NCBI RefSeq assembly: GCF_018132105.1
Contig: NZ_JWHL01000002.1
Location: forward strand, 124,001-188,000
Length of the DNA: 64,000 nt
From: Methanocalculus chunghsingensis
GTDB lineage: Archaea > Halobacteriota > Methanomicrobia > Methanomicrobiales > Methanocorpusculaceae
Direction: 5' to 3'
Numbering within the stretch: position 1 is the first letter of the stretch; every line of letters begins with the position of its first letter. Under the pieces are notes generated by a model, which saw only the letters and a list, made by a program, of their open reading frames with translations, was not told the DNA's origin and did no database searches. The translations under genes and the position numbers were made by a program. Shown here one piece after another: positions 31,327 to 43,434 of the stretch.

Positions 31327-32568
31327 TTATCTCTCTGATTCCTGAGCAGATTCCTCTTCCCGTCTGCCGCCAAGTTTTTTGAAGACCATCTCAAGCTCGT
31401 CCTCAAGCTCATCGGCGCGTACATCGACATTCCTGAGGTCCCGGACGAGGCTGAGATCAAGCTCCTTTTTAATTGTCTTGACGTCACCTTTGAGGGCACT
31501 GAGGATATCCATATCGCTGCCCCCTCCGAGTGCTCCAAAGTCCGGGACTTTCTGTTCCTGATCAGGCGTAAACTGATATCCCTCGTTAGCGGCGACAACC
31601 GTCGAAGGTTGTTCCTCCTCAGCGTCCTCTTCCTCCTCTTCATCAGAATCAGGAGTTGTAACAGAGCTTGTCTCAGGCTCATCATCGATATCGTCGATCT
31701 CATCGATCTCAAGAGCATCGAGGTCCTCATCGAGTTCGAGGGTATCGAGATCCATCCCGGACGAGAGTTCATCTGCATCGAATGCCTCATCATCCAGTCC
31801 GCCTTCCTGGGCGAGAATGGCAGCTGCATCATCCATGAATGACCCGGATTCCGCATCAAGATCGACTGATATCTCCTCGCCTCCGTCGGGATCGAGGAGT
31901 GGGCCGTCCATCCCCATCTCCCCGTCAAGTTCGGCAAATACGTCATCCTCAAGTCCGTCAAGGGAGATATCCCCGAATACATCGTCAGTGCTGCCACCAG
32001 ATCCCTGTGTCACCCCCGATGCGGCGATTGCACCGGCCGCCGCCATCGCCTCGTCACGAGGGGATGATCTCGTTGTTCTCCCATCAGATCCGGGATTTTC
32101 AGGTGTTTGCGGCGAATTCCCCTGCCTACCTGCCCGTATCCGGGCGAGGCGATCCCTCAATCCTCCAAAGAGGCGCTTCTTCTCTGTGGTGGGAGCTGCC
32201 GCCACCGGCGCCTCCTCTTTCTTTGAACGCCTGAACCGGGCTTTCACGCCACCTGCGGCTCTGCCAAGGGGTGCAAGTGCCGCCTCGATCTTCTGGAACC
32301 CCCGGTAAAAGGATGGCATCTTCTCTTCAAACTTCTCCCGCCATCCCGGACCGGCCGGCACCTCCGGCTCGTCCACCTTTTCTTCTGCCTCCGCCCTCCT
32401 CAGGCGAAGATCAGAGAATGTGAGAGCCCCTGTCAGGAAGAGGAGGAAGACTCCCAGCACAAATGTGACAAGAAGGATGTAGATGACCGGAAGCTGGACA
32501 AAGATGAAGAATGTTCCGATACTGACCGTTCCCAAGAAGAGGATTATCCTCCGTACTGAATCTCTCAT
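31327..32568 (-). CDS. Archaellum-locus membrane protein with long acidic region (function unknown; possibly ArlX/ArlC-like)
   Basis: 413 aa. Two adjacent transmembrane helices lie at about residues 8-25 and 28-50 (FFIFVQLPVIYILLVTFV). A basic cytoplasmic segment and an Asp/Glu-rich low-complexity region (about 175-325) follow. The end is a coiled coil of about 50 residues (DILSALKGDVKTIKKELD onward). TM-plus-coiled-coil plan recalls crenarchaeal ArlX, and the helical tail faintly recalls ArlC/D, but I cannot assign it. Its ATG overlaps arlJ by 1 nt (TAATG), and cheF follows 21 bp later, so it probably belongs to the motor or its signalling interface. Confidence 0.6.
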   Translation of the reverse strand: MRDSVRRIILFLGTVSIGTFFIFVQLPVIYILLVTFVLGVFLLFLTGALTFSDLRLRRAEAEEKVDEPEVPAGPGWREKFEEKMPSFYRGFQKIEAALAPLGRAAGGVKARFRRSKKEEAPVAAAPTTEKKRLFGGLRDRLARIRAGRQGNSPQTPENPGSDGRTTRSSPRDEAMAAAGAIAASGVTQGSGGSTDDVFGDISLDGLEDDVFAELDGEMGMDGPLLDPDGGEEISVDLDAESGSFMDDAAAILAQEGGLDDEAFDADELSSGMDLDTLELDEDLDALEIDEIDDIDDEPETSSVTTPDSDEEEEEDAEEEQPSTVVAANEGYQFTPDQEQKVPDFGALGGGSDMDILSALKGDVKTIKKELDLSLVRDLRNVDVRADELEDELEMVFKKLGGRREEESAQESER

Positions 32569-34184
32569 TATATTACCCCTCCTCCTGTTGAAACAAGTCC
32601 TTCCATGCTGAAGAAGACTTCAATAACCGGGGGAATCACCATGAAGAGCACCCCGGTGACGAAGACCATTATGGCTGCAAATGGATATGCGATACTCCTG
32701 TCTCCTCCGACAGCAAGTTTTGCGACGATAACATTTGATATGCAGATGATGATGAGAATATTGACGACGTACGCCCCGACGACGGCCTCGGGGAAGTCGA
32801 CGAATATCCCAAGGGCTCCTCCTCCCACCCCGCCCAGAGGTGCAACCGTTGACTCGGAGAGCGCAGCAGATGCCGCATCAAAGTTTCCCATTACCTCGGT
32901 GATGGCACGGGAGAGGGTGACCAGGATATGATAGAGTGCGATGAAGATACCGGCCATCGCCGCATGCATTGGAATCAGCAGAACGATGAATCCCATGCTG
33001 ATCATCTCACGCTTCTTTCTCATCAGCACCTGCTCAAGCATGGAATCAGCGACGACTGTCCCGATCTTCTTTGAGTCCCCACCCATATTGACGGTATCGC
33101 GGAAGATATTTAAGTACTTGTAGATGAAGTTGCTCCCACATTCGCCGACGAATTTTCTCCATGAGAGCTCCTCGTTGAGGCCAAGATTGAGCTTTGAGAA
33201 GACCGAGAGCATATGCGGCGACAGATGTGCCATCGACTTTTTGTCGATCTCTGCAAGTGCCTGGGACATCGTTCCACCTTTTCCCCCCATGATCGATCCA
33301 ACTCCGCGTATGAAATTTGGGAACTCCTCATCCCGTGCGATAACATTCTTATTATCGATATAGGCAAGAATACCAAGCGGAGCGAGCATGATGCCGACGA
33401 GCATGAAGATGATCCCTGCCGGAACCCCTGCTGCCCATGTAAGGAGCCATGCTGCCACCGTTGCCGGGAGGATGATCTTCTCCATCCGGGCGATCATCCC
33501 CTGCTCTTTTGACAGCCATTCCATAGACTTATACACACGCTCGTCAGTTGGTACAGTCTGAAACATCGTTCCTATTCCGAAGAGGGAGATGAGGATGATG
33601 ATCCAGTAGGTGATCGAGAGCGTCTCCTTCACATCGCCCGGTGAATAGATCGCAACCGAGATCATGATGGTGACTGCAATAACGACAGCTGAAAGGAGCA
33701 TCGCGATATAGGCGTCCCCCCATTTCTTCAGGAGCTCAAATCCACTGTCCTGGCTGTTTCGGAAGATCTCCATCGATGAGGAGATCTCCCCATCAAGGAA
33801 GTCCTCATCCGGTACTCCCGACTCCATCGAGTTAGCAAACCTGTTGAGGAGTGTTCGAAGGATCTCGTTCTCAGTCCTCTCTGCAACAATCGATAGTGAC
33901 TGAACATAGCTGTACCCCCAGCGCTTAACGAAGAACTCCACCTTCCTGATGGCTCTGGCGGGGGCATACTCCTTCCGCTCGGCGGTAGCCGCAAAGATCT
34001 CGGGACGCGAGGCACGGGCGATGGCAAGTGAGTTCATGTAGGTGACCATGAAGAGGATATCCGTGACCATCCGCCGCTCTTCAAAGACCCGGTTGATCCT
34101 GTCATAGACCTTCCCAAACTGATCCTCGAATGGGAGTTTGCCATTATTGCTCTCCCGAAGGCGGTCAACGACATTCTCAAACAT
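32568..34184 (-). CDS. arlJ: Archaellum platform protein ArlJ (FlaJ)
   Basis: 538 aa from ATG 34184, which follows the arlI stop by 1 bp; the in-frame start at 34205 would overlap arlI by 20 bp. Two T2SF-type cytoplasmic domains alternate with membrane helices (about residues 150-210, 245-280, and a cluster of four from 400 to the end). FlaJ-type proteins form the inner-membrane base that couples the ArlI ATPase to filament assembly and rotation. A glycine-rich GGVGGGALG loop occurs in the last membrane cluster. Confidence 0.95.
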   Translation of the reverse strand: MFENVVDRLRESNNGKLPFEDQFGKVYDRINRVFEERRMVTDILFMVTYMNSLAIARASRPEIFAATAERKEYAPARAIRKVEFFVKRWGYSYVQSLSIVAERTENEILRTLLNRFANSMESGVPDEDFLDGEISSSMEIFRNSQDSGFELLKKWGDAYIAMLLSAVVIAVTIMISVAIYSPGDVKETLSITYWIIILISLFGIGTMFQTVPTDERVYKSMEWLSKEQGMIARMEKIILPATVAAWLLTWAAGVPAGIIFMLVGIMLAPLGILAYIDNKNVIARDEEFPNFIRGVGSIMGGKGGTMSQALAEIDKKSMAHLSPHMLSVFSKLNLGLNEELSWRKFVGECGSNFIYKYLNIFRDTVNMGGDSKKIGTVVADSMLEQVLMRKKREMISMGFIVLLIPMHAAMAGIFIALYHILVTLSRAITEVMGNFDAASAALSESTVAPLGGVGGGALGIFVDFPEAVVGAYVVNILIIICISNVIVAKLAVGGDRSIAYPFAAIMVFVTGVLFMVIPPVIEVFFSMEGLVSTGGGVI

Positions 34185-34185
34185 T

Positions 34186-36060
34186 CTAATCCTTCCCCAC
34201 CTCAATCTTCAGCAGACCCTGCTTCCGGACCTTTGTCAGCATATGAAAGAGATCATAATACCTGACGTATCCCGACTGGTGAAGTCTCTCAAGGATCTTC
34301 GCCCTCTTATCGATCTCAAGATAGATATCGGCCTTCCTACGTTCCGGGATCCCAAGCATCGTTGCTATTTTGTACTCAAGAAGGAAGCTGATCCCTTTTG
34401 CATTGAAGGTGAAGGTATCCGTCACCGGTTCCCAGGAGAACGCCTCAATGAATGAGAAGCCCTGTGTCTCCGGATCATAGCCGACGAGCTCTGATACGGA
34501 GAGGATACGCCTGACGGTCTCCCCGCTTGGCCGTTTCACCGCACTCTGGATAACAACGACATTGAGGTTATCGACGAAGGTCTTTGGGATCAGGATCGGA
34601 TCTCCTGTAAGACGCTGTATCAGCTTCTCGACCGTCGCTGCGTGGAAGGTACTCATCACCGGGTGGCCGGTCTGCATCGCACCAAAGGCGATAGCACCTT
34701 CGACACCACGAATCTCTCCGACGAGGATCTGGTTCGGGCGCTGACGGAGTGCCGCACGCAGGAGGTCAAACATCGTCACTTCGGCTCCTTCACCCTCTCC
34801 CTTCCCCTTCCCTTTTGCGACCTCCCGGGTCCAGTTCCGGTGCGGGATGTTCAGTTCAGGGGTATCCTCGATGGTGACGATCTTATTCTCAGGTGGCAGG
34901 AACGCAGTGATGGCATTGAGGGTGGTTGTTTTCCCGGATGCCGTCTCCCCTGAGACAAAGAGGGACATTCCGTACTCAACCAGAATCCAGAGATAGGCGG
35001 CGACCATATAGTCGCAACCGCCACCGGCGATGATGTTTAAGATCGAGAGGGGTTCTCCCATCGCCTTACGGATGGTGAAGTTGCTCCCGTGCCTGCTGAT
35101 CTCGGTTCCATAGACGATGTTGATACGGGATCCGTCCGGGAGTGTGGCATCGACGATGGGTGAACGGTAGGTGATCGGGTGCTTGATTCGCTCAGCCATC
35201 TTCAGGACGAAGAGGTCAAGTTCATCTGATTTCTTGAACTCGATGACCGACTTCAACCCTTTGAAGATCTTATGTTCGATGAAGATGGGGCCGACCCCGT
35301 TGCAGGAGATATCCTCGATGTACCCGTCGGAAAGGAATGGCTTGAGGATCCCCATATCGACCTTGTCGCGGATGAGCAGGTACTCAAGTGCCGTGTACTG
35401 CGCCGGGGTAACGATCACCCTTCCGTCACCCGTCTGTGGAATTTCAGGGAACTTCATCTTCGAGGATTCTTTCTTTGCATCCCCGATATCCTTCTGAAGA
35501 AAATCCATGATCTTATCTTTGATTGACGTGGCTGCTTCGGCTGCTTTTGCAGTGATGAGGGTGCTCTCCCCCGAACTTTTCACCGAGGTTATCTCTTTTA
35601 AAAGCTTCTTTAAGATATCACCCCGTTCCTTTTCGGTCACGGGATCATAATCAAGGGCATCAAGGAGGTCGATGAGCTTGCATTCGATTGCAGGCATCAG
35701 ATAGTTGACACTGTGCAGAAAGGACGGTTCAATCGGGATATAGTACTGGCGGACATCATCGGGATCCGGGAGGATATGGACGAAGATTCCCTTCCCGACC
35801 GGATAGATGACATTCGGGCTCTCCATCCCTTTGAGATCCCCTTTCAGTTCTGAGAGGAAAAGGGGGATGCCGTAGATATCAACCGGGAAGATGAGGAGAT
35901 ATTCAAGGAGGTGCGGACTCTCGCGGACGTACTCCCGGGCGTTCTCAGGAAGCATCCGATACAGTGCGGATGATTCGAGATCACCTTCATAGATCCCTTC
36001 GACATCTGTTGTCTGGGGCTGAAAGGGGAGGGTTACGTCGATTGAGAGTGATGATACCAT
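34186..36060 (-). CDS. arlI: Archaellum motor/assembly ATPase ArlI (FlaI)
   Basis: 624 aa. A helical N-terminal domain of about 220 residues precedes a type II/IV secretion ATPase core. Motifs: Walker A SGETASGKTTTLNAI, Walker B region ILVGEIRGVEGAIA and the His box STFHAATVEKLIQRL. A hexamer drives both filament assembly and rotation, in contact with ArlJ and ArlH. The stop of arlH lies 3 bp upstream. No start ambiguity: ATG 36060. Confidence 0.96.
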   Translation of the reverse strand: MVSSLSIDVTLPFQPQTTDVEGIYEGDLESSALYRMLPENAREYVRESPHLLEYLLIFPVDIYGIPLFLSELKGDLKGMESPNVIYPVGKGIFVHILPDPDDVRQYYIPIEPSFLHSVNYLMPAIECKLIDLLDALDYDPVTEKERGDILKKLLKEITSVKSSGESTLITAKAAEAATSIKDKIMDFLQKDIGDAKKESSKMKFPEIPQTGDGRVIVTPAQYTALEYLLIRDKVDMGILKPFLSDGYIEDISCNGVGPIFIEHKIFKGLKSVIEFKKSDELDLFVLKMAERIKHPITYRSPIVDATLPDGSRINIVYGTEISRHGSNFTIRKAMGEPLSILNIIAGGGCDYMVAAYLWILVEYGMSLFVSGETASGKTTTLNAITAFLPPENKIVTIEDTPELNIPHRNWTREVAKGKGKGEGEGAEVTMFDLLRAALRQRPNQILVGEIRGVEGAIAFGAMQTGHPVMSTFHAATVEKLIQRLTGDPILIPKTFVDNLNVVVIQSAVKRPSGETVRRILSVSELVGYDPETQGFSFIEAFSWEPVTDTFTFNAKGISFLLEYKIATMLGIPERRKADIYLEIDKRAKILERLHQSGYVRYYDLFHMLTKVRKQGLLKIEVGKD

Positions 36061-36063
36061 ACG

Positions 36064-36828
36064 TTATACCCGTGCAAAGGACATCGGAATGATCTTCATG
36101 CCGTACCCCGGATGCACCTCAAATGATACCAGGTTTCCGGTCGTTTTTCGTGCACCCCGGACTTTGCCGACCTCCATCACCATCACATACTTGTCGCCGA
36201 TGAGCGCCTTCTTCATCACAAGGTGGGCATCGCAGGTCGAGCGGATCCGTACCAGTGAATCTTCGTCGAAGGCATAGGTGTGGAGTGTGATCAGGATGGT
36301 CTTGCCGTTGTCGACGAGGGTCTTGCAGTTGGTGAAGAAGGTGAGGACCATGTCGGTCGATGCATACTCTGAGAAGAGGGTGAGGGAGTCGATGATGATA
36401 ACGTCAGCCTTGCTCCGCTCGATATGCCTGATGAGCCTCCCGAGGATCCCCTGCATATCCTTCTCATCCCAGTCGAAGCCGACGACATGGAGGGGGAAGA
36501 CGCGAAGATACCCCCAGGCATAGTACTGGGAGATGTCAAGGCTCATCGACTCCATCTGGTTCAAAAAACTCTTGACGGTATTCTCGGTGGTGAAGAGATC
36601 GACCTGGAAGGAGTTCTTCATCGCACCCCAGGTGATCTGCTGGGTGATGACGCTCTTGCCGGTGTCATTCTCCCCTTCGATGAGGGTCATCGAGTAGAGG
36701 GGGAGGCCGTCTGCTATCTTCTTGTCGATCTCGGGGTTCCCGGTGGAGAGGATCTCTTTTCCTGTATCCAGATGGAGATCCTCATCAAGGACCTCTTCTT
36801 CCTCGTCGTCGTCGTAGATATTCTTCAT
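36064..36828 (-). CDS. arlH: Archaellum accessory ATP-binding protein ArlH (FlaH)
   Basis: 254 aa RecA/KaiC-like fold. Walker A is GENDTGKSVITQQ, Walker B is VIIIDSLTLF. The N-terminus is highly acidic (DDDEEEEVLDEDLHLD). ArlH binds but barely hydrolyses ATP and works as a ring with ArlI. It lies 10 bp downstream of arlF and 3 bp upstream of arlI. Confidence 0.96.
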   Translation of the reverse strand: MKNIYDDDEEEEVLDEDLHLDTGKEILSTGNPEIDKKIADGLPLYSMTLIEGENDTGKSVITQQITWGAMKNSFQVDLFTTENTVKSFLNQMESMSLDISQYYAWGYLRVFPLHVVGFDWDEKDMQGILGRLIRHIERSKADVIIIDSLTLFSEYASTDMVLTFFTNCKTLVDNGKTILITLHTYAFDEDSLVRIRSTCDAHLVMKKALIGDKYVMVMEVGKVRGARKTTGNLVSFEVHPGYGMKIIPMSFARV

Positions 36829-36838
36829 TCTTCCTCCT

Positions 36839-37297
36839 TCAGAGATAGCTCGATGCTGTGATCCCGTTGGGTGTTGCCACCTTCACCCATGAGGCGTTGG
36901 CAACACCGGAGATATTTATACTCATATTCAGGGACTCCCCGGGATCGAGGAGACCGGGGTTGATGCCGTCGGGGGTGATTGCCCCCTCCTGTGTCCATGA
37001 TGCCCGGACCATCTGTGTGAACAGATCATTTGCGAGATAGACATCCATACTTTCGGGCTCCGGATCGATGATGGTTGCTCCGTCATTTGTGATGAGGAGA
37101 TAGAGCTGATCCTCAGTCAGCGTATAGTCTTCGATGACGATGGATGTCCGAACGGTGGTCACCTGTACATCTGTCATCTCCCTCTGTGCCGACATCACGG
37201 TCTCGGCAGTGACAAGTGTCGCCCCGACGAGGAGATATGCCACAAGGAGCAGGAGGAAGACTCCAACGACTGCCCCGATCAAATTTGCAACCGCCAT
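36839..37297 (-). CDS. arlF: Archaellum stator protein ArlF (FlaF)
   Basis: 152 aa. One N-terminal membrane helix (about residues 5-30, GVFLLLLVAYLLVGATLV) is followed by an extracellular beta domain. The pattern VRTSIVIEDYTLTEDQLYLLITNDG resembles FlaF. In solved systems ArlF and ArlG form the stator that anchors to the S-layer. The assignment of F versus G between this gene and the next upstream gene rests on weak similarity. Sits 9 bp downstream of arlG. Confidence 0.8.
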   Translation of the reverse strand: MAVANLIGAVVGVFLLLLVAYLLVGATLVTAETVMSAQREMTDVQVTTVRTSIVIEDYTLTEDQLYLLITNDGATIIDPEPESMDVYLANDLFTQMVRASWTQEGAITPDGINPGLLDPGESLNMSINISGVANASWVKVATPNGITASSYL

Positions 37298-37306
37298 ATG
37301 TGCCCC

Positions 37307-37804
37307 TCAGACCGCTGTAAATTCAGTGCTCCTTCTGACACCATTTTGAAGGACGACCTGAAAGACGATCCTGTCTCCTGAGCTGACAACTCCGGCTTTG
37401 GCGATGATCTCAAGCGTCTCTCCCCGATCCCAGAGGTCGTTTCCGTTGTCGTCATATAGTATGAATCGCCATTCCCCGGCATCCGGTACTCCCCCTTCCA
37501 CATATGTCAGCCGCTGGTACTGCCCGGTCTCACCAAGAAAGATATCAAATCCGGAGATGAGGTTCTCCTGGATTGGATTGACGCCGGTGTTCTTAATCCA
37601 GATATAGGCGGTATCATCACTTGAATGGAGGGCAGTATTGATAACTCTGATATCGGTCCGCATCCGATCGTCCATCTCATGTGATCCGGCGACGAAGGTC
37701 TCTGATGCCTGGTAGATTGAAGGAAAGATTGCATTGACGAGGACACCTGCCGCTATGATTGCGGTGACCAGAAATATCGCAGTGACAAATGTCTCCGAGG
37801 TCAT
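37307..37804 (-). CDS. arlG: Archaellum stator protein ArlG (FlaG)
   Basis: 165 aa. An N-terminal membrane helix (about 5-28, FVTAIFLVTAIIAAGVLV) resembles the archaellin-type hydrophobic helix without a processing site. The extracellular part has RMRTDIRVINTA and YIWIKNTGVNPI, which fit FlaG. The C-terminal VVSSGDRIVFQVVLQNGVRR also matches methanogen FlaG proteins as I know them. ArlG filaments cap/stabilise ArlF. Located between arlD/E and arlF. Confidence 0.82.
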   Translation of the reverse strand: MTSETFVTAIFLVTAIIAAGVLVNAIFPSIYQASETFVAGSHEMDDRMRTDIRVINTALHSSDDTAYIWIKNTGVNPIQENLISGFDIFLGETGQYQRLTYVEGGVPDAGEWRFILYDDNGNDLWDRGETLEIIAKAGVVSSGDRIVFQVVLQNGVRRSTEFTAV

Positions 37805-37844: not shown

Positions 37845-38699
37845 TTATATCTTGTCGATCAGGTGCGCCCATTCCTCCCCGATCTCTTCTCTCTTCGATA
37901 TTCCGGACCTCTTGGAAAAACCCTTCTTTGTGTCCCGCTCCATCATCACGGCGATCATGTCGCGATCAAGGGAGGTGTCGTCGGGATCCATGATCCGGTT
38001 GAGGATATAGAGCTCTGAGACGAACTCGTCTGCCCCGACCTCATGCTCCTCGCCGAGGGAGGCGGGCATGATACGTGCGATCTCTTTCACCTCGTCTGCC
38101 GCCTCCTTGGTGATGTACCCGATGGAGCGGTAACTGTCGAGCATGATATCCAGCCGATCATGGCCGTACTTGGTGATGGCGGCCTTCGTCCAGTTGAAGA
38201 GGTGATAGACCTTCTGGAGGCAGAGCTTTTCATCACCGGTATCACTCTTCTTCTGTCCGGTGGACGGGGGCATCTGCCCCATTGGATTGGGCAGCTGGGG
38301 GAGGGGAGGGGCAGGCTGTGCCTCAGGGTAATTATCAGTCTCAGGATAATTGTCGGTCTCAGCCTTCTTCTTCGATCGCTTCGGCTTCTCCTCCTCTTCC
38401 TCCTCCTCAAGCTCCACCATCTCGCGGAACTCAAAGAGCTCAGCCACCCTCGCCTCAAGCTCTTCAAGGCGGGCGGCATCGTCAGGAGTGAGGCCGGCGA
38501 TCACCTCGCCTCCTCCCTGTGCAAGGACGGTCAGGGGGTTGTCCCCCTCGTTCAGCCGCTCCCTGATATCGATCAACAGCTTCTTGATCGACTTTTTGAG
38601 GAGCTCCACCTCACGCTCCAGATTTTGCAGCTTCACCTCGGGATCATCGGCGGAGGCGCTCGCCAGGATGCTGTCGACCTGAGACTGATCTACTGCCAT
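37845..38699 (-). CDS. arlD: ArlD/E-type archaellum switch-complex protein (FlaD/E)
   Basis: 284 aa, soluble. A coiled coil covers about residues 20-55, a highly charged linker about 95-150 holds a direct 6-residue repeat (ETDNYP twice). The conserved FlaD/E domain fills the last 110 residues (YHLFNWTKAAITKYGHDRLDIMLDS... in part; YILNRIMDPDDTSLDRDMI). These proteins form the cytosolic ring that receives CheF-CheY input. Only one such gene is present, so C, D and E functions may be merged or the unknown gene after arlJ may contribute. Confidence 0.85.
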   Translation of the reverse strand: MAVDQSQVDSILASASADDPEVKLQNLEREVELLKKSIKKLLIDIRERLNEGDNPLTVLAQGGGEVIAGLTPDDAARLEELEARVAELFEFREMVELEEEEEEEKPKRSKKKAETDNYPETDNYPEAQPAPPLPQLPNPMGQMPPSTGQKKSDTGDEKLCLQKVYHLFNWTKAAITKYGHDRLDIMLDSYRSIGYITKEAADEVKEIARIMPASLGEEHEVGADEFVSELYILNRIMDPDDTSLDRDMIAVMMERDTKKGFSKRSGISKREEIGEEWAHLIDKI

Positions 38700-38887: not shown

Positions 38888-38894
38888 AAAAAAA
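38888..38894 (-). terminator. T-run after the last archaellin gene
   Basis: TTTTTTT on the minus strand about 14 nt beyond the stop of the sixth archaellin gene. Likely reduces read-through from the strongly expressed filament genes. Confidence 0.45.
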
Positions 38895-38907: not shown

Positions 38908-39474
38908 TTACCTGAGAATGTTCACCGGGTAGATAGATGCTGGAGCGGTCCGCACAACGGTGAGGAGTGCGCCAACTTCAGGTTGCATCGAGATGGTGAA
39001 CCTCATGTTGGGGGGTGTATCCGGAACCTTGACGGTCAGGAGGAATTTCTCCCCGGGTTCAAGGATGGTATCCTCAGTGACCTCATCGAAGATCTCTGTG
39101 ATATTCCATTGAACTCCAGTAAGGGCTGCTCTATCAGCCAGATACTGGGGTGTGGTCCTCGTTGTGGCATCCGCATACGTCACCCGCATTGCAGAGATGT
39201 TCATCGGGGACATCCCTGAGGTGAGTGCGATGGTGAACTGGACTGTGCCAAGTCCATTGCCACTAGTGGTGTTTTCAAACCCATACACATCACCAATGAC
39301 TTCGATGCTGGATGCTGCCTGTCCGATGCCGCTGTGGACGACATCCTGTGCCTTCTGGGCGGTAAAGAATCCTGCCCCGAGCATGACGTACGAGAATACC
39401 GCCGCCACGACGACGAAGGCGATCAGGACGATTGCCGCTTCAAGACCGGTAAATGCATTTTCATTCTTCTTCAT
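38908..39474 (-). CDS. arlB: Archaellin, type A (third A copy)
   Basis: 188 aa from ATG 39474 (MKKNENAFTG), with the Shine-Dalgarno-like AAGGTGAT upstream; the longer frame to 39489 uses TTG and overlaps the previous gene. Class III signal peptide: short basic leader, predicted cleavage NENA/FTGLEAAI, then the hydrophobic helix EAAIVLIAFVVVAAVFSYVM that packs the filament core. The outer domain has three N-x-S/T sequons. The C-terminus ends ASIYPVNILR, the A-type signature. Last filament gene, followed by a T-run. Confidence 0.95.
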   Translation of the reverse strand: MKKNENAFTGLEAAIVLIAFVVVAAVFSYVMLGAGFFTAQKAQDVVHSGIGQAASSIEVIGDVYGFENTTSGNGLGTVQFTIALTSGMSPMNISAMRVTYADATTRTTPQYLADRAALTGVQWNITEIFDEVTEDTILEPGEKFLLTVKVPDTPPNMRFTISMQPEVGALLTVVRTAPASIYPVNILR

Positions 39475-39485
39475 CCACATCACCT

Positions 39486-40052
39486 TCAATAGACCTCATA
39501 GACGGCATTCAAATCAAACGTGAGCGGGGCATACCGGCTTATCGGGAGTGTTGCGCCGGTTGATGGCTTCACTTCGATGGTAAATGGGTTGTTCTCCTCG
39601 ATTAACGCCGAGCCATACGTATTGTTGATCCCAATCTCAAGGATCTCGCCACGTTCAAGCAGGTTATTTGGAGTGGTTCCGGCGTTATGCCAGTTATAAT
39701 TCACTTCGGTCGAATTGAGCTGTCTGATTGCTTCCTGTGTTGAGAGGGTGTATGTCACCCGGTTCACATCCACTGGCAATCCTCCTGCCGCAAGGATCAG
39801 GGTAAAGTTAGCCCATTTAACAAATCCTGTATCATTGGTCTGGAGTATAACCGGCCCGGAGACCTCCATATTCGTGGCGGCCTGACCAATCGCGGAGTAG
39901 ACCGTCTCCTGGCTCTTCTGGGTTGTGAAGAACCCGGCGCCGAGCATTACATATGAGAAGACCGCAGCGACCACGATGAATGCAATCAGGACGATCGCTG
40001 CCTCGAGGCCGGTGAAGGCTTCCTCCCTTTGTTCTTTTCTGTTTCTCTTCAT
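39486..40052 (-). CDS. arlB: Archaellin, type B (third B copy)
   Basis: 188 aa; ATG 40052 preceded by AGGTGAT. The signal peptide is more charged (KRNRKEQREEA/FTGLEAA). The conserved helix is followed by TTQKSQETVYSAIGQAA, and the gene ends with ALTFDLNAVYEVY, the B-type signature. Several N-x-T sequons (NDT, NST, NNT) may be glycosylated. Forms a B-A pair with the gene that follows it. Confidence 0.95.
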   Translation of the reverse strand: MKRNRKEQREEAFTGLEAAIVLIAFIVVAAVFSYVMLGAGFFTTQKSQETVYSAIGQAATNMEVSGPVILQTNDTGFVKWANFTLILAAGGLPVDVNRVTYTLSTQEAIRQLNSTEVNYNWHNAGTTPNNLLERGEILEIGINNTYGSALIEENNPFTIEVKPSTGATLPISRYAPLTFDLNAVYEVY

Positions 40053-40077
40053 GATTTATCACCTACATCGATTTCCT

Positions 40078-40692
40078 TCAGCGGAGGACATTTCCTTTGT
40101 AGATCGATGCCGGAACGGATCGGACTATGGTTGTGAGAGCACCCATTTCAGGCTGCATCGAGATGGTGAACCTGGTATTCGGTGTTGCGGACTCAGGGAC
40201 GCCAAGCTGGAGGAGGAACTGCTCTCCGGGTCTGATGACGGTGTTATTGTTCAGAATATATCCTTCCCTGTTGTACACCTCCATGATACGCCACTGCGTA
40301 CGGTTAGGCTCTCCGCCAATGTGTGGATCCCCCGGGTTACCATATGAATGGGTATTGTTAAAGCTCAACTGCTGGATCGCTCCACTGTCCGCATACGTAA
40401 CCCGCATATGGCCGAGGTTCATATTGGACATTCCTGATGTCAGCTGGACGCGGAAGCGGACATGCGTCAGGTTGTCTGCATTATCCTCGCTTGCCTCTCC
40501 ATAGACATCACCGACAACCTCGATGCTGGATGCTGCCTGGCCGATACCGGAATGGACGACATCCTGTGCCTTCTGGGCGGTAAAGAATCCTGCCCCGAGC
40601 ATCACATACGAGAAGACCGCTGCGACGACGACGAAGGCGATCAGGACGATTGCCGCTTCGAGACCGGTAAATGCGTTTTCATTTTTCTTCAT
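40078..40692 (-). CDS. arlB: Archaellin, type A (second A copy)
   Basis: 204 aa from ATG 40692 (MKKNENAFTG), preceded by GAGGTGAA. A-type leader and helix, TAQKAQDVVHSGIGQAASS block, and the A-type end ASIYKGNVLR. Four sequons are visible (NLT, NNT, NRT, NNT), the most glycosylation-prone of the A copies. The variable central region differs strongly from the other A copies although both ends are conserved. Confidence 0.95.
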   Translation of the reverse strand: MKKNENAFTGLEAAIVLIAFVVVAAVFSYVMLGAGFFTAQKAQDVVHSGIGQAASSIEVVGDVYGEASEDNADNLTHVRFRVQLTSGMSNMNLGHMRVTYADSGAIQQLSFNNTHSYGNPGDPHIGGEPNRTQWRIMEVYNREGYILNNNTVIRPGEQFLLQLGVPESATPNTRFTISMQPEMGALTTIVRSVPASIYKGNVLR

Positions 40693-40703
40693 AATCATTC
40701 ACC

Positions 40704-41273
40704 TCAGTACACCTGATAGACACTGTTCTTCGTCAGACTCAGCGGTGCTGTTCGGGCAATCGGGAGAGCGGCACCGGTTGATGGCTTCACCTCGATTGAA
40801 AATGGCTCATTTGCATTGATTGTGCCTATATGAGATGCACCTTCGATCTTCACCGTCAGGATCTCACCACGCTCAAGAAGGTTGTTCTCATCACCAGCGT
40901 TATACCAGGATCGTGTCACATCGCTAGCAGAATCTGCAAGCTCAAATATTCCTTGCCGGGTCATGACAGTGTAGGTCACCTTGTTCATATCCACCGGTGA
41001 GCCACCGGCCGCAAGGATCAGGGTGAAAGTGGCATTTGTTATAGTTCCACTATTATCTGTCATTAAAATGATCGGTCCGGAAACCTCCATGTTCGTAGCG
41101 GCCTGACCGATCGCGGAATAGACCGTCTCCTGGCTCTTCTGGGTTGTGAAGAACCCGGCTCCGAGCATCACATATGAGAAGACCGCAGCGACCACGATGA
41201 ATGCAATCAGAACGATTGCCGCCTCAAGGCCGGTGAAGGCTCTCTCATTCATTTCTCTTCTGTTTTCCTTCAT
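40704..41273 (-). CDS. arlB: Archaellin, type B (second B copy)
   Basis: 189 aa from ATG 41273 (MKENRREMNERAFTG), preceded by AAGGTGAA; an in-frame start at 41303 would overlap the upstream gene. B-type: ERA/FTGLEAA processing site, TTQKSQETVYSAIGQAATN block, EVKPSTGAALPIARTAPLSL and terminal VYQVY. Confidence 0.95.
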   Translation of the reverse strand: MKENRREMNERAFTGLEAAIVLIAFIVVAAVFSYVMLGAGFFTTQKSQETVYSAIGQAATNMEVSGPIILMTDNSGTITNATFTLILAAGGSPVDMNKVTYTVMTRQGIFELADSASDVTRSWYNAGDENNLLERGEILTVKIEGASHIGTINANEPFSIEVKPSTGAALPIARTAPLSLTKNSVYQVY

Positions 41274-41299
41274 AGTAGATTCACCTTGCCATACTTCGT

Positions 41300-41905
41300 T
41301 CACCGGAGGATGTTCACCGGGTAGATCGATGCCGGAACTGTCCGCACAACGGTTGTCAGTGCCCCGACCTCAGGCTGCATGGAGATGACGAAACGGGTGT
41401 TCGGTGTTGATGTGGTTGGTACAGCCATCTCCAGCAGGAACTTCTCGCCGGGCCGGAGGACTCTGTCATTACCTGGAATGACAGCGAAGTCCCGGTTCTC
41501 GACCCTGCGGATGATCCATGTATTTGGATCTGCTGGACCCTCTGTTGGAGCCCCACCTGTTGCAACGGAATTTGTAGAATCAAAGGTCAGATCCTGCCTT
41601 GTTCCGGGATCCGAATAAGTCACCCGCATCGCCGAGATATTCATCTCGTTCATCCCTGATGTCAGGTGGATGGCGAATCGAGTCGTGTTCAGGTGAGCTG
41701 GTACGCCTTCCCCAATCACATCACCAACAACCTCAATACTGGATGCTGCCTGGCCGATACCTGTGTGGACGACCTCCTGGCTCTTCTGTGCCGTGAAGAA
41801 CCCGGCTCCGAGCATCACATACGAGAAGACCGCCGCCACGACGACGAAGGCGATCAGGACGATTGCCGCTTCAAGGCCGGTAAATGCATTTTCATTCTTC
41901 TTCAT
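41300..41905 (-). CDS. arlB: Archaellin, type A (first A copy)
   Basis: 201 aa from ATG 41905 (MKKNENAFTG), preceded by GAAGGTGG; in-frame start codons upstream (to 41914) lack this spacing. A-type features: TAQKSQEVVHTGIGQAASS, SMQPEVGALTTVVRTVPAS and terminal YPVNILR. Central region is rich in Gly, Thr and Pro and contains the sequons NTT and NIS. Confidence 0.95.
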   Translation of the reverse strand: MKKNENAFTGLEAAIVLIAFVVVAAVFSYVMLGAGFFTAQKSQEVVHTGIGQAASSIEVVGDVIGEGVPAHLNTTRFAIHLTSGMNEMNISAMRVTYSDPGTRQDLTFDSTNSVATGGAPTEGPADPNTWIIRRVENRDFAVIPGNDRVLRPGEKFLLEMAVPTTSTPNTRFVISMQPEVGALTTVVRTVPASIYPVNILR

Positions 41906-41916
41906 GATAACCACCT

Positions 41917-42477
41917 TCAGTAGACCTCATAATAGGCTGTTCCAGTGCTCTTAAAGGAGAGCGGGGCATAGCGGGTGATCGGGAGCGATGCACCGGTTGA
42001 GGGCTTCACCTCGATGGTGAATGGCTGGTTTGCCTGAATGTGCTGCCTACCCGTATCATCAAGTACTAATCCGACTTCAGCGATCTCTCCCCGTTCCAGA
42101 AGCTGGTTCTCCACACCGACGTTGAATTTCCTTATAGACACATTATAATAGCCAAAATCAACAACTTGGTCCTGAGTGGAGAGTGTATAGGTCACCTTCT
42201 TCAGATCAACCGGCACACCGCCTGCTGCGAGGATCAATGTGAAGTTCGCTTGTTCCACACTCCCACCACTAGTCTTCAGAACCACCGGTCCCGAGACCTC
42301 GAGGTTCGTGGCGGCCTGTCCTATCGCAGAATAGACCGTCTCCTGGCTCTTCTGTGTCGTGAAGAACCCGGCTCCGAGCATCACATACGAGAAGACCGCA
42401 GCGACCACGATGAACGCAATCAGGACGATTGCGGCCTCAAGGCCAGTGAAGGCATCCTCTTCTCTTTGTAACTTCAT
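41917..42477 (-). CDS. arlB: Archaellin, type B (first gene of the archaellum operon)
   Basis: 186 aa; ATG 42477 preceded by AAGGTGAT. B-type: REEDA/FTGLEAA processing site, TTQKSQETVYSAIGQAATN block, terminal AYYEVY. As the promoter-proximal filament gene it is probably the most abundantly transcribed. It lies about 70 bp downstream of the archaellum TATA box. Confidence 0.95.
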   Translation of the reverse strand: MKLQREEDAFTGLEAAIVLIAFIVVAAVFSYVMLGAGFFTTQKSQETVYSAIGQAATNLEVSGPVVLKTSGGSVEQANFTLILAAGGVPVDLKKVTYTLSTQDQVVDFGYYNVSIRKFNVGVENQLLERGEIAEVGLVLDDTGRQHIQANQPFTIEVKPSTGASLPITRYAPLSFKSTGTAYYEVY

Positions 42478-42548: not shown

Positions 42549-42560
42549 TAATATATATAG
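42549..42560 (-). promoter_or_regulatory. TATA box of the archaellum operon
   Basis: The minus strand reads CTATATATATTA. Transcription would start near 42527, leaving a 5' leader of about 50 nt before the first archaellin. Confidence 0.6.
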
Positions 42561-42669
42561 ATATTCATCATATGGAATTGCATGAATCGGGACGATAGCT
42601 TTTCTCAACCCGATAGTACTTTTTGTACGATCTGTAAAGCTGTGTATACAGCAGGAGGATTGCTCAATC

Positions 42670-43434
42670 ATGGATAAACAGGATATTATGACATTCATCG
42701 CCGGGCTCGTCTTCGTGGTCATTATTGCGGTTGTTATTAACCCGATGGTCACCGGGGAGAGCCCTGATTTCAGCATACCGCCGATGCCGGGCGCGGGGGA
42801 GCGTGGCCCGCAGGCGGTGGTGACGCCCCCGCCGACTGCGGTGCCGCTTGGGCAGATAAGCATCCCGCACCCGTCGACGATGCAGGCGGGGAGTGCCGGG
42901 GGGGTAATGGCACAGGTCTGGGACGGCCAGCCGATCCGGCTTGGGTATGTCGATCCCGGCACCTATCATCTGACGCAGCCGGATGGCTCGATCCCGGCAC
43001 GGCGCCCCATCGAGACGGATGGCCGGGAGGTAACCCTCCAGACATTCGCAACGATTGAAGGACAGTGGAGCGGGGTATCCCAGGTGTTTGAGATCCCATT
43101 CCCCCGGTGGGAGCTTTGGTATACCGTCACCCCATCGATGCTCCCGACCGGGACATCACAGTCGGTCGGCTATCCCCGGTTCACGATCACGGTGATGGAT
43201 GCGGAAGATCCAAACCGGGTCGTCAGGATAATTGATCCGGTCGGGGGTGGGATCATCGACGAACGGCTCTGGAGTACCAACGATCCTCGCCCATGGAAGG
43301 AGAGCTTCCTCGAAGGCGGGCGGAGCTACTACCTGCTCATCGAGACCCGGCTGATCAGCTCCTATACAATAGAGGTGAAGGTTCCGGTGCCATCTGAGGG
43401 TGGGGCGATCCCGGCTCCGGCATCCGAGCCCTGA
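42670..43434 (+). CDS. Single-span membrane-anchored protein of unknown function
   Basis: 254 aa. One membrane helix at about residues 8-25 (FIAGLVFVVIIAVVI) leaves the rest outside the cell. A Pro/Gly-rich spacer (about 28-65) leads to a beta-rich domain with IPFPRWELWYTVTPS and YYLLIETRLISSYTIEVK. I do not recognise a family. Strong AGGAGG lies 10 nt before the ATG. It diverges from the archaellum operon, 190 bp apart, so it may be a surface protein, but nothing ties it to motility except position. Confidence 0.7.
   Translation: MDKQDIMTFIAGLVFVVIIAVVINPMVTGESPDFSIPPMPGAGERGPQAVVTPPPTAVPLGQISIPHPSTMQAGSAGGVMAQVWDGQPIRLGYVDPGTYHLTQPDGSIPARRPIETDGREVTLQTFATIEGQWSGVSQVFEIPFPRWELWYTVTPSMLPTGTSQSVGYPRFTITVMDAEDPNRVVRIIDPVGGGIIDERLWSTNDPRPWKESFLEGGRSYYLLIETRLISSYTIEVKVPVPSEGGAIPAPASEP

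Follow-up and report, generated by a model that had tools for sequence, protein, structure and literature searches.

A tandem array of three archaellin gene pairs in Methanocalculus chunghsingensis and its possible relation to a two-component archaellum filament

Organization of the archaellin array

In a 64,000-nucleotide stretch of the Methanocalculus chunghsingensis genome (RefSeq:NZ_JWHL01000002.1, positions 124,001 to 188,000; hereafter the window), six intact archaellin open reading frames (ORFs) were located on the minus strand at 38908-42477, upstream of arlCDE-F-G-H-I-J (Table 1). As stated in a preliminary description of the window, they are of two types and follow one another in the transcription order B1-A1-B2-A2-B3-A3; all six matched PF01917 (Arch_flagellin) at 122-130 bits, against a curated cut-off of 29.5. 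It is likely, in our view, that the array represents three tandem copies of an old B-A unit, duplicated pair by pair, and that B and A co-assemble at about 1:1.

Start codons were picked by the Shine-Dalgarno motif upstream, and an AGGTG-type ribosome-binding site was present ahead of all six genes. The spacers from B stop to A start were 11, 11 and 11 nt, and those between an A stop and the B start that follows were 26 and 25 nt. Repeat analysis revealed that the B-A pair is the repeat, with a period of 1.21-1.22 kb and longer three-copy families with a period of about 1.2 kb, and that the tail-coding region occurs in six in-register copies, the spacing of which alternates (563, 655, 566, 647 and 566), as does the identity (62, 87, 63, 85 and 63%). 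The constant spacers, the period and the alternating identity bear out the earlier proposal that the pair was duplicated as a unit. Alternation of the types is by itself weak evidence, because chance gives it in 2 of the 20 orders of three plus three genes; what goes beyond chance is the repeat anatomy, the constant spacers and the B-then-A order in every relative with both types. An assembly artefact was ruled out, as the same-type copies differ by 40-51% in the head and the array lies inside a 240 kb contig.

Table 1. Features of the array, the arl genes downstream and the off-operon pair. Positions refer to the window unless a locus is given; L, G and C numbers are our handles for loci, genomes and contigs.
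Feature	Position	Strand	Remarks
Archaellin B1, first gene of pair 1	41917..42477	-	PF01917 122 bits; B clade; Shine-Dalgarno motif AAGGTGAT upstream
Archaellin A1, second gene of pair 1, 11 nt after B1	41300..41905	-	PF01917 128 bits; A clade
Archaellin B2, pair 2, 26 nt after A1	40704..41273	-	PF01917 126 bits; B clade
Archaellin A2, pair 2, 11 nt after B2	40078..40692	-	PF01917 130 bits; A clade
Archaellin B3, pair 3, 25 nt after A2	39486..40052	-	PF01917 125 bits; B clade; AlphaFold mean predicted local distance difference test (pLDDT) score 87.5
Archaellin A3, pair 3, 11 nt after B3	38908..39474	-	PF01917 125 bits; A clade; AlphaFold mean pLDDT 90.7
TATA-like stretch CTATATATATT, candidate promoter of the array	42549..42561	-	72-84 nt upstream of B1; read from sequence, putative function
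Seven-T run, candidate archaeal terminator or attenuator at the archaellins/arlCDE boundary	38888..38894	-	Directly after A3 stop; read from sequence, putative function
arlC/D/E-like protein	37845..38699	-	PF04659 Arch_fla_DE 22.8 bits, cut-off 21
ArlF/ArlG-type stator protein	37307..37804	-	NCBIfam ArlG and ArlF matches below cut-off; PF01917
ArlF/ArlG-type stator protein	36839..37297	-	NCBIfam ArlF match below cut-off; PF01917
ArlH	36064..36828	-	NCBIfam ArlH 270 bits, cut-off 215
ArlI motor ATPase	34186..36060	-	NCBIfam FlaI 739 bits, cut-off 550
ArlJ assembly platform	32568..34205	-	NCBIfam ArlJ/FlaJ 643 bits, cut-off 570
Diverged off-operon archaellin-like pair	L031:4912-6036 (G000:C49)		Also L038, L039, L041-L044; Methanoculleus L227-L230

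Sequence and predicted fold of the two archaellin types

All six proteins contain a stretch ending in F-T-G followed by the hydrophobic helix LEAAIVLIAF, the predicted class III signal peptide cleavage site. The markers by which the two types had been told apart were found to hold: 1) the signal peptide is MKKNENAFTG in all three A proteins, and has 12-15 residues and is more charged in B, 2) the block after the helix (TTQKSQETVYS versus TAQK[AS]Q[DE]VVH) separates the types, and 3) the C-terminus is YYEVY, VYQVY or VYEVY in B and YPVNILR in A, except for YKGNVLR in A2. Head identity among the six was 19-25% between B and A, compared with 52-60% among B and 49-58% among A. AlphaFold models of A3 and B3 had the archaellin fold, with a long N-terminal helix and a beta head, and matched the known archaella 7ofq, 5tfy and 9i5h (Foldseek E values 1e-7 to 1e-13). 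As to other possible type differences, glycosylation was a weak candidate, with sequons fewer in B in 22 pairs and more in 11, and no difference in head charge was found between B and A in the pairs compared.

Distribution of the B-A pair

Exactly one B-A pair was present in the Methanocalculus genomes G001, G002 and G007, on long contigs around the locus, and G004, on a shorter contig; G005 had one on a 3.7 kb contig. The contig of G003 begins within B, and G006 lacked a pair beside its stator genes, at a contig end. These assembly breaks (start of G003:C7 and end of G006:C26) fall at archaellin genes, as tandem copies often cause, so that both genomes may hold more than one pair. No archaellin was found in 25 genomes of the sister genus.

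Operons were extracted from Methanomicrobiales at loci drawn from strong matches, with a B-type sequence as the first of the query. Their archaellins were arranged as B-A in 50 loci, as B-A-B-A-B-A in one (the window), as B-A-A in one and as B-A plus an unclassified gene in one more; two others had a cut or unparsed gene ahead of A, and a further two held a lone B gene. In the two loci scored as lacking B, this upstream gene, contig-cut or unparsed, ends in the B C-terminus. B came first in all 53 loci with both types, which answers the gene-order check proposed earlier, and neither the reverse order nor a lone A-group gene was seen among the extracted loci. The distance from the B stop to the mature start of A was 40-53 nt in 54 of 55 pairs. 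Since the sampling of loci leaned to a B-type query, a better guide to the frequency of B-A operons within the order is a B-head profile, which at 99 bits or more identified 68 genes, spread over 60 of 232 genomes. In several of these genomes there was more than one B head, on other contigs or 41 kb apart, and only in the window genome were they in tandem (gene counts and tandem status were counted by hand from the profile listing). It was also noticed that four genomes of another genus of the order (G192-G195) have 10-13 archaellin-like genes each, scattered over the chromosome.

Relatives manage with one pair, and unequal crossing-over readily arises between tandem repeats whose tails are shared, as would be expected if a two-archaellin operon had expanded by neutral drift, with redundant extra copies and an order free of functional meaning. 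Yet the six genes are intact despite the within-type head divergence of 40-51%, and in the operons examined A was never lost from the pair and B was never kept alone as the sole archaellin, and we regard drift as an unlikely explanation.

Phylogeny of the two types and age of the triplication

In an archaellin tree of Methanomicrobiales, B formed one group (support 100/95) and A another (90/84), so that the expectation of two clades was confirmed; the Methanocalculus B and Methanocalculus A proteins were each recovered at 100/100. The A group was placed beside archaellins of single-type operons; therefore, A appears to be the order's general archaellin, with B as a special partner. In a wider tree, the upstream archaellins of Methanosarcinaceae (the family f8 of our set, which we take to be this family) and of Archaeoglobi formed a single clade with B (99/94) that left out the downstream ones, and the deep branches on the A side were weakly placed (56/77). 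The labels Archaeoglobi (f9) and Methanoculleus (g10) were given by similarity to named records (L109, L143, L158 and others). The simplest reading of these trees would be one old split, after which the order was kept with the B-type upstream. The three most divergent members of the phylum examined (G508, G522 and G539) have other archaellin tails and are not included in the tree.

The copies in the window are about as far apart as species of the genus, the head of B1 being 60% identical to B3, 59% to the B of G001 and 62% to that of G005, and at conserved head residues the third codon positions agree at only about half of the sites. The triplication therefore looks old. In the tree, B1 grouped with the B of G001 (99/90) and A1 with the A of G001 (94/42), A2 stood next to the latter (99/95), and B2 branched outside the remaining Methanocalculus B (97/83). 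Judging from these branchings, the triplication is probably older than the divergence from G001, which would later have lost copies; otherwise, the heads evolve very fast. A recent, species-specific triplication with homogenised copies is disfavoured, as the paralogues are as distant as orthologues and B1 and A1 group with the G001 pair; the approximately unbiased (AU) test on it was borderline (p 0.046 for B and 0.099 for A).

That the heads of the three pairs differ as between species and are not homogenised could also mean that each pair forms its own filament, chosen by environment or virus pressure, with only the pair in use expressed; ecoparalogous archaellins are known in Haloarcula (PMC7349177). 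Such condition-specific or surface variants seem doubtful here, where the array appears to be one transcription unit, with one TATA-like stretch, 25-26 nt between the pairs and no T-run between them.

Duplicated pairs elsewhere and the off-operon pair

In Archaeoglobi, a two-type pair of their own was found as a tandem duplicate at two loci, L196 and L195 (identical to L158), and in Methanoregula OWC_0058 two B-A pairs lie dispersed (L134 and L135). At both Archaeoglobi loci, the first archaellin of the second pair is larger, with 277-288 mature residues (L195:2579-5370 and L196:2414-5099). In addition, every Methanocalculus genome has a distant archaellin-like pair outside the operon (in G005, one member was seen, at a contig end). 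Together with the Methanoculleus counterpart, the first gene of this pair was placed within B (100/98) and its second gene with the A side (100/99), an assignment that is probable rather than certain because of the long branches. The off-operon pair may be a special filament part such as a cap or base. In Methanocalculus it adjoins a three-gene MacB-type ATP-binding cassette (ABC) exporter (L031:6135-9000), and a lone B gene of Methanoregula adjoins a similar exporter cassette (L144:6111-9368); no such cassette was found beside the Methanoculleus off-operon pair.

In all these duplicated pairs (the window, the two Archaeoglobi loci, Methanoregula OWC_0058 and the off-operon pair) both halves were kept. 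This bears on a division into major and minor subunits, in which one type, A (or B), makes up the filament while its partner serves as basal hook, cap or trace component, like FlaB3 of Methanococcus, the pair being kept by operon inheritance. A-like archaellins alone in many Methanomicrobiales appear able to form a filament without B, and archaellins that serve as hook or cap are known or have been proposed (PMC8821640; PMC7349177). A minor part need not be amplified in step, yet the whole-pair duplications retain both members; the tails are shared within pairs and the ribosome-binding sites of B and A genes are similar, and we therefore consider this division quite improbable.

Possible co-assembly of B and A

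Most archaellum structures have been solved as homopolymers, and whether two-component filaments are exceptions has been a standing question. The preliminary description fairly stated that few fixed heteropolymers are known, but it omitted Halorubrum, where FlaB1 and FlaB2 are both in the filament at about 1:1 and with more stability (PMC7349177), and Methanocaldococcus villosus, where ArlB1 and ArlB2 alternate strictly (PMC8821640). Given that the pair order is kept across several archaeal orders, our results suggest filaments built of two partner proteins. At this locus there are two types, the pair as repeat unit, a conserved order, an upstream type of old shared origin and intact genes beside arl; co-assembly, a 1:1 ratio, a dimer as building block and the use of three versions are what we infer for the proteins.

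Class III signal peptidase would cut both precursors before LEAAIVLIAF, after which the B and A tails would pack in one filament core and the divergent heads would meet at head-head contacts. Because the tails would share the core and the heads would make these contacts, B and A may contribute about equally to the filament. The likeliest form would be a B-A dimer or the alternation seen in M. villosus, and the ratio would be set by tight coupling of the two ORFs on a shared transcript. Unequal crossing-over between pairs would gain and lose whole units, leaving B-A-B-A-B-A, and three pairs would provide either more of one filament or filaments with different surfaces. Within the order, partner tails were 90% identical, compared with 84% for same-type tails of other loci (by a permutation test that ignores relatedness), and partner heads averaged 33%. 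The tail similarity fits co-packing of partners, and also gene conversion. B and A distances correlated (Mantel r 0.83), as for linked genes inherited together.

Several points weigh against co-assembly: 1) the partner tails in this Methanocalculus genome are only 82-84% identical, 2) B2 and A2 have non-matching places in the trees, which suggests some exchange between pairs, 3) co-inheritance and tail similarity can stem from shared descent and gene conversion, 4) at two loci outside arl operons a B-type gene stands alone, the genome of one (L144) also having two B-A pairs, 5) Halorubrum filaments of a single archaellin work (PMC7349177), and 6) the reading for this organism comes from genes rather than proteins or structures. 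Furthermore, the alternation, once taken as a sign of a two-component filament, loses that force, since duplication of pairs yields it mechanically whatever the filament is made of and so gives no proof. The claim that the types are needed together survived in part: joint use is supported indirectly by the ordered pair, the shared tails and the duplication of pairs as wholes, but the dependence looks one-sided, because A-like archaellins occur without B in many Methanomicrobiales and no arl operon examined had B as its sole archaellin.

Two-component archaella are predicted to be common and old in Methanomicrobiales, Methanosarcinaceae and Archaeoglobi, because the pair is ordered, has an upstream member of single origin and was repeatedly duplicated as a whole; this is open to test in isolates of Methanocalculus and Methanoculleus and in Methanosarcina, which is genetically tractable. 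Since the two heads differ so strongly, two-component filaments would also matter for the way in which archaella acquire supercoiling and conductivity. A bolder and rather improbable extension is that the B-A dyad is the ancestral archaellum block of Halobacteriota methanogens and Archaeoglobi, accompanied by a dedicated off-operon dyad, and that the three dyads in this Methanocalculus genome act as orthogonal heterodimers with matched partners, either assembling a single filament from as many as six subunits, arranged in segments or mixed, or changing the filament surface.

Genes flanking the array

The archaellins are encoded together with arl motor genes, ArlH, ArlI and ArlJ downstream of the array being above their cut-offs. 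After ArlJ lie chemotaxis genes, including those for CheF, a CheY-like regulator and CheB. Upstream of the array, a divergent gene (42670-43434, plus strand) encodes an N-terminal membrane segment MDKQDIMTFIAGLVFVVIIAVVINPMVTG and had no Pfam match.

Comparison with known archaellin systems

No paper on Methanocalculus archaellins was found in the literature, nor one naming archaellins together with both Archaeoglobus and Methanoculleus. The archaellum of Methanospirillum hungatei (PDB:5tfy), from the same order, is among the closest solved sequences to both types, but it was described as a single-archaellin filament. Methanosarcina (M. acetivorans FlaB1/FlaB2, PMC8546582; Methanosarcinaceae loci L187-L194) also has an ordered pair whose upstream gene groups with B; it differs in having one pair only, and the M. 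acetivorans genes stand outside the tree, so that their relation is by family. ArlB1 and ArlB2 of M. villosus (PMC8821640; PDB:7ofq) are likewise encoded in one operon, are both in the filament and share tails while differing in heads, and both types described here match 7ofq by modelled fold. In M. villosus, however, the two are 56.5% identical overall with identical tails, whereas here the heads are 19-25% and the tails 82-84% identical (90% on average in the order), and the third gene, arlB3, is minor there.

A close likeness in layout and signatures is to FlaB1/FlaB2 of Halorubrum (PMC7349177), the archaellins of which are not included in our trees. That system is haloarchaeal, its duplicates form a second two-gene operon, and no three-pair array has been reported. 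As in the window, it consists of two strongly diverged archaellins in a fixed order in one operon, the shorter first, with type-specific motifs directly behind the helix and at the C-terminal end, and duplication has occurred, affecting the operon in 9 of 47 species.

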